This document shows positions 25,997 to 28,117 of a DNA stretch of 40,072 bases, piece by piece. A program made the position numbers and the translations under genes. Source of the stretch: an uncultured Bacteroidales bacterium (GTDB taxonomy: Bacteria > Bacteroidota > Bacteroidia > Bacteroidales > Muribaculaceae); assembly GCA_946011725.1 (NCBI GenBank), contig CAMGBT010000014.1, forward strand, positions 1 to 40,072, given 5' to 3'. How positions within the stretch are numbered: the stretch's first letter is position 1; every line of letters begins with the position of its first letter. The notes beneath the pieces were generated by a model. It was not told the origin of the DNA. It did not search any database and worked only from the letters and a program-made list of their open reading frames with translations.

Positions 25997-26701
25997 ATGA
26001 ATACTTCTAACGACAATTACACTTATCAGTATCCCCACCCCGCAGTCGCTACCGACTGTGTTATCTTTGGATACGACGGAAATCGCCTGCAAGTGCTCCT
26101 TGTAGAGCGTGGTATAGAACCGTTTAAAGGCTCGTGGGCTCTCCCCGGCGGATTCGTGCGCGAAAACGAAACTGCCGAAGATGGTGCTCGCCGTGAACTC
26201 TTCGAAGAGACCGGCGTTAGTCACGCTTACATCAAACAGCTCAAAGCCTATTCCGCCATCGAACGCGACCCCCGCGAACGCGTCATCTCAATCGCTTTCT
26301 TCGCCCTGGTAAAATCCTGCGAAGTCAAAGGCGGCGACGACGCATCGCAAGCTCGTTGGTTCAACATTGACGAGGTGCCCCAACTCGCTTTCGACCACCA
26401 AGCCATCCTCCAAGATGCCATCGAAGCTCTCCGTCGCGAAATCCATTTCGAACCCGTTGGCTTCGAGCTCCTGCCCGAGCGCTTCACCATCCGCGAGCTC
26501 CAAAACCTCTATGAACAAGTGCTCAAAGTCGAATTCGACCGCCGCAACTTCTTCAACAAGATCCGCCGCCTCGGCATCCTCAACCGCCTCAAAGAAACCA
26601 CCCGTCCCACTCCCAAAAAAGACGCCTACCTCTTTGAGTTCAACCAAAAAGCCTACAACGAATTCAAAGCCAAACACAACGGCTTCCGCATGGAATTCTA
26701 A
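25997..26701 (+). CDS. NUDIX-domain protein with C-terminal winged helix (NrtR/AraR-like regulator)
   Basis: This 234-residue protein joins a NUDIX domain (about 18-150) to a C-terminal winged-helix region (about 160-225, with FTIRELQNLYEQVL and KIRRLGILNRL). That is the layout of NrtR-type transcription factors and of the Bacteroides arabinose regulator AraR. The Nudix box is complete: GFVRENETAEDGARRELFEETGV from G52, with R66, E67, E70 and E71 all present. It might therefore keep hydrolase activity, whereas several regulators of this family have lost it. No NAD-salvage or sugar-use operon is adjacent, so the regulated pathway is not revealed. It is transcribed alone between its promoter and a strong hairpin. 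Confidence 0.85.
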   Translation: MNTSNDNYTYQYPHPAVATDCVIFGYDGNRLQVLLVERGIEPFKGSWALPGGFVRENETAEDGARRELFEETGVSHAYIKQLKAYSAIERDPRERVISIAFFALVKSCEVKGGDDASQARWFNIDEVPQLAFDHQAILQDAIEALRREIHFEPVGFELLPERFTIRELQNLYEQVLKVEFDRRNFFNKIRRLGILNRLKETTRPTPKKDAYLFEFNQKAYNEFKAKHNGFRMEF

Positions 26702-26720: not shown

Positions 26721-26760
26721 ACAGCAGCGCGCCCTCCCCACCGGAGGGCGCGCTGCTGTT
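26721..26760 (+). terminator. Strong hairpin after the NUDIX gene
   Basis: A perfect 17-bp stem (26721-26737 with 26743-26759) with loop CCACC is followed only by TTCAATCC. It lies 20 bases after the stop and probably ends transcription, although the T-run is very short. Confidence 0.7.
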
Positions 26761-26775
26761 CAATCCAGTCCAAAA

Positions 26776-26859
26776 TTGTCGGTTGCAACCGACAAAAAAT
26801 ACAAAATCTGTCGGTTGCAACCGACAAAAATCAAAAAAATCTGTCGGTTGCAACCGACA
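26776..26859. repeat. Three identical 18-base palindromes ahead of the ATPase gene
   Basis: TGTCGGTTGCAACCGACA is perfectly self-complementary and occurs at 26777-26794, 26809-26826 and 26842-26859. The starts are 32 and 33 bases apart, close to three helical turns, so all three would face the same side of DNA. The first copy extends to a 20-base palindrome. The spacers are A-rich. The third copy ends 4 bases before the -33 TTG of the ATPase promoter, which is the place expected for an operator or activator site. Confidence 0.9.
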
Positions 26860-26863
26860 AATA

Positions 26864-26894
26864 TTGCATATATCAAAAATTCTTATTACCTTTG
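26864..26894 (+). promoter_or_regulatory. Promoter of the AAA ATPase gene
   Basis: TTG (26864-26866), a 20-base gap and TACCTTTG (26887-26894) lie 23 bases before the ATG at 26918. The promoter directly follows the third palindrome. Confidence 0.7.
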
Positions 26895-26917: not shown

Positions 26918-28117
26918 ATGGAACAGTTATTCGAACGAAAAAACCAATTAGTGCGGCTCACTTCGCTGAATTTTGTGCGCGATATCATGAATGACATCAA
27001 CTGGAATGCCCAACTCATCTGCATACGAGGCGCTCGTGGCGTGGGAAAAACCACCCTTATGCTCCAGTATATCAAAAAAAATTACCCCGCCATGAGTCGG
27101 CAGGTGCTATTCGTTAGCCTTGACACATTGTATTTCACCACTAATTCTCTGCTCGACTTGGCTCGAGATTTTTACAACAATGGCGGCAAACATCTTTTCA
27201 TTGATGAAGTGCATAAATACCCCACCTGGAGCAAAGAAGTTAAAGAAATCTACGACCTCTATCCGGATATGCGCGTGGTTATTAGCGGCTCCTTATTACT
27301 TAATATATTGGGGGGCGATGCTGACTTGTCGCGCCGCTGCGTGCCTTACGATATGCAAGGCTTCTCTTTTCGCGAGTACCTCGCTTTCTATCACAAAATT
27401 TTACTTCCCAAGTGCAATCTGCACTCGCTTCTCTCCGCTCCCGAGGATATTTGCGCAGCTGTGTTGGACCGTTGCCATCCCCTACCGCTGTTTAAGGACT
27501 ACCTCAAATTCGGCTATTTCCCTTTCTATAGTAAAAATAAGGAAAACTACTACACCTTGGTGGAGCAAGTGCTCAGTTACGTAGTGGAAATGGAACTTCC
27601 GCAAATTTTCAATGTGGAAGTGGCTATGACCCGCAAAATCAAAGCACTCTTAGCGGTAATCAGCGCAAGTAAACCTTACGAAGTCGATGCATCAAAATTG
27701 AGCAGTGTGATTGGTGTGCACCGCACTACCGTTGTCAACTATTTATATATGCTTCAAAAAGCAAGCATCATCAATATGCTCTTCCAAGAAGCAAAGTCAA
27801 TCAAGAAACTTCAGAAGCCCGACAAAATTTACCTCGAAAACACTAATCTACTGTATGCAATTGCTCCCGAGTCAGTTGAAATTGGTACATTGCGTGAGAC
27901 ATTCTGTGTTAACCAACTTTCGTATGCCCATCAAGTGGAATACCGCAAGCAGAAGGGCGATTTCTTAGTCGATGGCAAGTTTACCATCGAGGTCGGCGGC
28001 CAAGCCAAAGGCTTCGAGCAAATTGCCGGTGTGGACAATTCATATATCTTTGCTGATGACATCGAGATGCCATACGGGCGCAAACTTCCCCTTTGGCTCG
28101 CCGGCTTCACCTACTAA
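26918..28117 (+). CDS. AAA_14 / DUF4143 family ATPase
   Basis: This 399-residue protein belongs to the archaeal/bacterial AAA_14 group with a C-terminal DUF4143-type region. The Walker A motif is GARGVGKTT (38-46, K44), Walker B is HLFIDEVHK (92-100, D96 and E97), and a sensor-like stretch VVISGSLL follows. A winged-helix-like segment lies near 265-300 (VDASKLSSVIGVHRTTVVNYL). The C-terminal nuclease-like fold shows EVGGQAKGFEQI. The cellular role of this widespread family is not settled. I chose the ATG at 26918; an in-frame ATG at 26783 would read through the palindromes and promoter. Its base composition is noticeably more AT-rich than that of its neighbours, and it sits alone between terminators, which suggests acquisition by transfer. 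Confidence 0.85.
   Translation: MEQLFERKNQLVRLTSLNFVRDIMNDINWNAQLICIRGARGVGKTTLMLQYIKKNYPAMSRQVLFVSLDTLYFTTNSLLDLARDFYNNGGKHLFIDEVHKYPTWSKEVKEIYDLYPDMRVVISGSLLLNILGGDADLSRRCVPYDMQGFSFREYLAFYHKILLPKCNLHSLLSAPEDICAAVLDRCHPLPLFKDYLKFGYFPFYSKNKENYYTLVEQVLSYVVEMELPQIFNVEVAMTRKIKALLAVISASKPYEVDASKLSSVIGVHRTTVVNYLYMLQKASIINMLFQEAKSIKKLQKPDKIYLENTNLLYAIAPESVEIGTLRETFCVNQLSYAHQVEYRKQKGDFLVDGKFTIEVGGQAKGFEQIAGVDNSYIFADDIEMPYGRKLPLWLAGFTY

Follow-up and report, generated by a model that had tools for sequence, protein, structure and literature searches.

Three identical palindromes precede the gene for an AAA_14 ATPase in the DNA analysed here, a stretch of 40,072 nucleotides from an uncultured Bacteroidales bacterium (the window), and the question raised by this locus is what the palindromes are for and which protein reads them. 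From the comparison of the locus with its homologues we consider it probable that they are an array of operators through which the ATPase gene is controlled by its own product, which would most likely act on it as a repressor.

The palindromes and the neighbouring ATPase gene

The sequence TGTCGGTTGCAACCGACA is a perfect 18-bp palindrome that occurs in three identical copies, at 26777-26794, 26809-26826 (32 bp downstream) and 26842-26859 (33 bp downstream), none of them assigned to a strand; the starts at 26777, 26809 and 26842 and the steps of 32 and 33 are exactly those given in the first-pass annotation. The copies span 83 bp and the spacers between them are not identical. Four bases separate the end of the third dyad from a TTG on the forward strand (26864-26866), which by the Bacteroidota promoter consensus we take to be the putative -33 element, and the -7 element, TACCTTTG (TAnnTTTG), follows at 26887-26894 on the same strand. 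None of 100 dinucleotide shuffles gave a match to the palindrome trio, even at 3 mismatches, and the trio holds the sole occurrences of the 14-bp palindrome core in the 2.53 Mb genome. A role of the window dyads as RNA hairpins is unlikely, given that they lie upstream of the promoter.

The gene on the other side of the array (25997-26701) encodes a NUDIX domain with an NrtR-type winged helix and is probably a metabolic regulator. A strong GC-rich hairpin, CAGCAGCGCGCCCTCC...GGAGGGCGCGCTGCTG (26721-26759), stands 3' of it and is likely the terminator that parts this gene from the operator array. The neighbourhood made up of the NUDIX/NrtR-type gene and a PASTA-like gene is unconserved across the genus.

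The ATPase gene (26918-28117, forward strand) encodes 399 amino acids and stands alone. Its GC content of 45.2%, against 53-63% in the neighbouring genes and 57.1% in the window, agrees with the earlier remark that the gene is richer in AT than its neighbours, just as the gap of four bases before the TTG had been read correctly. Of the AAA_14/DUF4143 label that the gene had received, the first part stands, with a clear match to AAA_14 (PF13173; E 1e-28, 100.2 bits against a cut-off of 27), and the second does not, the match to DUF4143 (PF13635) being weak (E 5e-5) and below the cut-off (23.5 against 28.1 bits). The PADLOC PDC-S01 model PDLC04787 matches residues 29-344 with an E of 1.4e-28. 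An intact Walker A motif, GARGVGKT, is evident from the sequence and the alignment at residues 38-45 (27029-27052, forward strand).

The AF2 model of the protein (pLDDT 90) presents, in order, an ATPase, a helical region, a winged helix-turn-helix and a C-terminal domain, names that are our reading of the predicted secondary structure. The winged helix-turn-helix covers residues 255-303 (27680-27826, forward strand), with helices at 258-265 and 269-281 and strands at 285-288 and 303-306; in the model, 269-281 would be the recognition helix and 285-303 the wing. Profile searches gave a weak HTH_11 match in this region, and an ORC4 stretch, profile positions 263-320, matches the winged helix. 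The best PDB fold match is an Orc1-DNA complex (2v1u), followed by clamp loaders and RuvB.

The C-terminal domain (27881-28114, forward strand) is nuclease-like by alignment and by weak Foldseek matches to nuclease folds, the top ones including Hjc, Eco15I, I-Bth0305I and EcoRV, all with E of at least 0.5. Its motif reads E..D348..E358-V-G-G..K364..Q368, where D348 and E358 are invariant among the aligned members and K364 is conserved nearby. In all aligned members a glycine takes the place of the ExK lysine (EVG), and the catalytic D...(D/E)xK of a PD-(D/E)XK nuclease is absent. Nuclease action should not be assumed, because the fold likeness is weak and this lysine is replaced.

Private dyads, a common pitch and a fixed register

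The first-pass annotation had proposed, as a check, to look for enrichment of the palindrome itself ahead of related ATPase genes. With the exact sequence this check fails, as the search for the exact paired palindrome returned one of 393 genomes of the order, the source genome; what does recur ahead of homologues is the architecture, the dyad being spelled differently from one gene or close clade to the next. Homologues were picked by protein, blind to their upstream DNA. The search of the genus gave 30 matches with at least 37% identity, 3 of them in the own genome, distributed over 12 of 49 genomes; public genomes yielded 80 loci, mostly from Bacteroidota, with single MAGs labelled Fibrobacter, Lentisphaeria and Treponemataceae, and the viral set yielded 4 contigs with a homologue.

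The usable upstream regions numbered 107 and came from Bacteroidota plus a few other MAGs. Their best self-match lag was 33 in 62 and 32 in 19, together 81 of the 107, whereas shuffles led us to expect about 7; roughly a quarter of the regions have no clear repeat at 32/33. What recurs at this pitch is a dyad 17-20 bp long, in most cases of the form TG(n)CA (for example TGCTTAnnnnnnTAAGCA, TTGCACnnnnnnnGTGCAA and TCCCTCATTGAGGGA), whose spelling is common to close relatives and different in distant ones, and thus private to a gene or close clade. This privacy extends to paralogues: the own genome contains about 17 AAA_14 genes, most of them preceded by their own, different repeats, and when the self-match score was computed over the 200 bp upstream of each gene, a strong 32/33 bp repeat preceded 9 of the 17 AAA_14 genes and 2 of the 183 other genes of that genome that served as controls.

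Several loci merit separate mention. Five homologues (L083, L091, L080, L099 and L084) have a step of 29 bp in place of 32-33. The homologues on IMG/VR viral contigs (L187-L190), at least some of which have promoter dyads, may lie on prophage or on misassigned host DNA. The own-genome paralogue C29 (L005; 8737-8749) has its dyad, CCCTCAATGAGGG, once more immediately 3' of the stop codon.

When dyads were scored by the half-site of each locus, 75 loci provided 113 spacings between neighbours; 33 bp was the value in 77 cases and 32 bp in 23. With 100/113 at one of these two values the spacing is not free to vary; free variation would, according to the first-pass annotation, have counted against a functional array. 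The -7 box TAnnTTTG lies within 60 bp of the ATG in 91 of 108 homologues, and dyad centres peak near -80, -48, -16 and +15 from its TA. The core promoter is covered by a dyad in 57 of the 75 loci. The dyads therefore stand at the gene's own promoter in a fixed register. The window gene is an exception, since its three dyads are centred at -101, -69 and -36, just upstream of -33, and the last one lies two turns, about 20 bp, further upstream than the -16 dyad that is usual in the family. Two near relatives of the window gene, L078 and L079, likewise have dyads upstream of -33 and are also without the -16 dyad. The window gene is a divergent member of the family.

Other AAA_14 subfamilies have the 32/33 pitch more rarely, with this lag in 13 of 53 EVK-type genes and in 7 of 18 other AAA_14 genes; the multi-copy array is absent from most EVK-type genes, and several genes of other subfamilies show a lag of 22-23 or a single inverted repeat. 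In the AAA_14-like genes L029, L210 and L314 the repeats follow each other every 22-23 bp, or roughly two turns of the helix rather than three. Three RRxGK-type genes of the own genome (L014, L015 and L017) have a long dyad upstream and a second long one close to the start codon, some 75-120 bp apart, possibly a looping arrangement. An EVK-type gene in a Treponemataceae-labelled MAG (L305) shows a lag of 33 with a score of 72, so that the array architecture probably extends past Bacteroidota.

Which protein reads the dyads

We called the half-sites from the DNA alone and then compared them with the protein columns, in statistics that partly control for relatedness. Mutual information was highest around residues 268-274 and 284-293. 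Partial distance correlation, from which whole-protein distance had been removed, peaked at the segment centred on residue 271, with a mean of 0.073 for the helix against -0.005 elsewhere, and 0/200 permutations reached the helix value. A signal at residue 1 in both scans was set aside, as we attribute it to differences in start position. The nearest-neighbour and pair analyses scanned all 10-residue segments of the protein, and the segment from 267 came first in both, predicting the half-site best among proteins less than 55% identical (2.70/5 against a median of 2.07) and giving the highest partial r among moderately similar pairs (0.29 against a median of -0.01, sd 0.09). Arg269 is associated with the G of the TG anchor (61/72 vs 5/17), also after thinning to less than 60% identity (35/44 vs 2/9, p = 0.0018). 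At residue 268 there are tendencies of Asn to occur with TT, Ser with C and Asp with GG, and these associations are modest after thinning (p 0.03-0.09). The spelling of the operator half-site tracks the recognition helix of the ATPase best, and residues 267-276 (27716-27745, forward strand) make up its predicted specificity segment. The initial functional view of the phased dyads as sites for a dimeric DNA-binding protein holds, with the ATPase as the best candidate reader; the suggestion that the nuclease-like domain recognises them is not supported, as the co-varying residues fall in the winged helix instead.

The ATPase could also read the array for another purpose, as a recognition site for DNA processing (element ends, a replication or partition site, or a nuclease target), with promoter control being secondary. 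The fold matches to Orc1-DNA, clamp loaders and RuvB would suit this, as would the ORC4 match of the winged helix, the dyad past the stop codon of C29, the AT-rich gene with patchy homologues in the genus (12/49 genomes) and the few viral contigs. We nevertheless hold it to be unlikely, because the array keeps a fixed register with the promoter, all window copies lie upstream with no flanking copy, no conserved partner or transposase is found, and the nuclease motif is without the ExK lysine. A mobile element with terminal repeats was rejected for the window gene, for which the three upstream copies are the only ones in the genome. The suggestion in the first-pass annotation that gene and palindromes may have moved together gains no support from the empty-site comparison within the genus, in which the neighbourhood is unconserved, the neighbours differ and no empty site was readable.

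Dyads upstream of a promoter are a signature of regulators in general, and binding of the ATPase to them is predicted from covariation, so that a separate host regulator might bind the palindromes and control the ATPase gene. We judge this to be quite improbable: the dyad differs per gene or clade, and each would then need its own dedicated regulator, yet the spelling follows the recognition helix of the ATPase and the site is confined in the genome to the window gene. In addition, no neighbour gene recurs in related loci, so the ATPase gene appears to act alone and there is no conserved neighbour able to supply a regulator. Recent tandem duplication, or chance, without any binding function is very improbable, for although three identical copies within 83 bp could come from duplication and the exact sequence is absent elsewhere, the spacers differ, the pitch recurs with unrelated sequences in 81/107 homologous promoters, and the family-wide pitch and register already contradict it, as does the covariation with the protein.

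In an operator array read by the ATPase itself, the reading that we prefer, a dimer of the protein would bind each 18-bp dyad, and with a separation of three helical turns, neighbouring dimers would sit on the same side of the double helix, in a position that their ATPase domains could bridge. Self-repression would be the basic action, because in most relatives the -33/-7 region, or else the start site, would lie beneath a bound dimer, and it might be relieved by a change of nucleotide state or by a trigger. We infer this oligomer bridging as well as the sign and trigger of control. The window gene, with its dyads just upstream of -33, may for that reason be self-activated in place of self-repressed. 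Private sequences would stop cross-regulation among paralogues in one cell. A more daring and rather doubtful extension is that AAA_14/PDC-S01 ATPases are self-addressed, DNA-anchored sensors, which would sit as a phased oligomer on their own promoter lattice with a private code until a phage-related trigger releases them, switching the gene on and freeing the ATPase/nuclease-like protein.

Relation to known systems

PDC-S01 is described as an ATPase joined to a PD-(D/E)XK-type domain and as fourth in frequency among the defences of all prokaryotes, in a core defensome where validation is pending for most PDCs (PMC12988326); in a survey of the rumen it came first in frequency among individual loci (PMC13356809). 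The window protein matches the PADLOC models of this abundant candidate defence gene, which is enriched in archaea; it differs from the published PD-(D/E)XK fusion in that its clade has EVGG in place of EVK. Few uncharacterised genes that are listed as candidates for defence are as common as ATPases of this type (PMC12988326, PMC13356809), and our comparison of sequences suggests that this abundant, uncharacterised family would switch its own genes. For each clade member there is now a prediction of its DNA partner and of the helix that reads it, together with an approximate code of recognition, with which its function becomes testable, and in the diverged pairs of protein and operator that the clade supplies the evolution of self-specific DNA recognition can be studied.

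Searches of the open-licence literature on PDC-S01, DUF4143, COG1373 and related subjects brought up no account of such arrays at promoters or of self-recognition. Autoregulators with tandem palindromic operators include the C proteins of restriction-modification systems, phage repressors and the antitoxins of toxin-antitoxin systems. The likeness is that protein and private operator evolve together, that the dyads lie at the gene's own promoter and that helical phasing suits cooperative binding; unlike them, the proposed reader here would be a lone ATPase of the AAA type that has its winged helix within the protein, and the pitch of 32-33 bp is constant across a phylum-wide family. With initiators of the Orc1/Cdc6 type the protein shares the order of an ATPase followed by a DNA-reading winged helix, as well as repeated DNA sites; however, the similarity to 2v1u is one of remote fold only (TM ~0.32, 11% identity), and the sites here are promoter-locked, with no origin role indicated. 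RptR, reported to be a repressor controlling restriction-modification defence (PMC12255303), resembles our case in the transcriptional control of a defence locus, but it is a protein apart from the system that it represses, and in our proposal the regulator is the ATPase. Autoregulation through tandem operators is a known kind of control; what appears to be new is that a stand-alone AAA_14 ATPase would use it, throughout a phylum, on a private lattice tied to the promoter.
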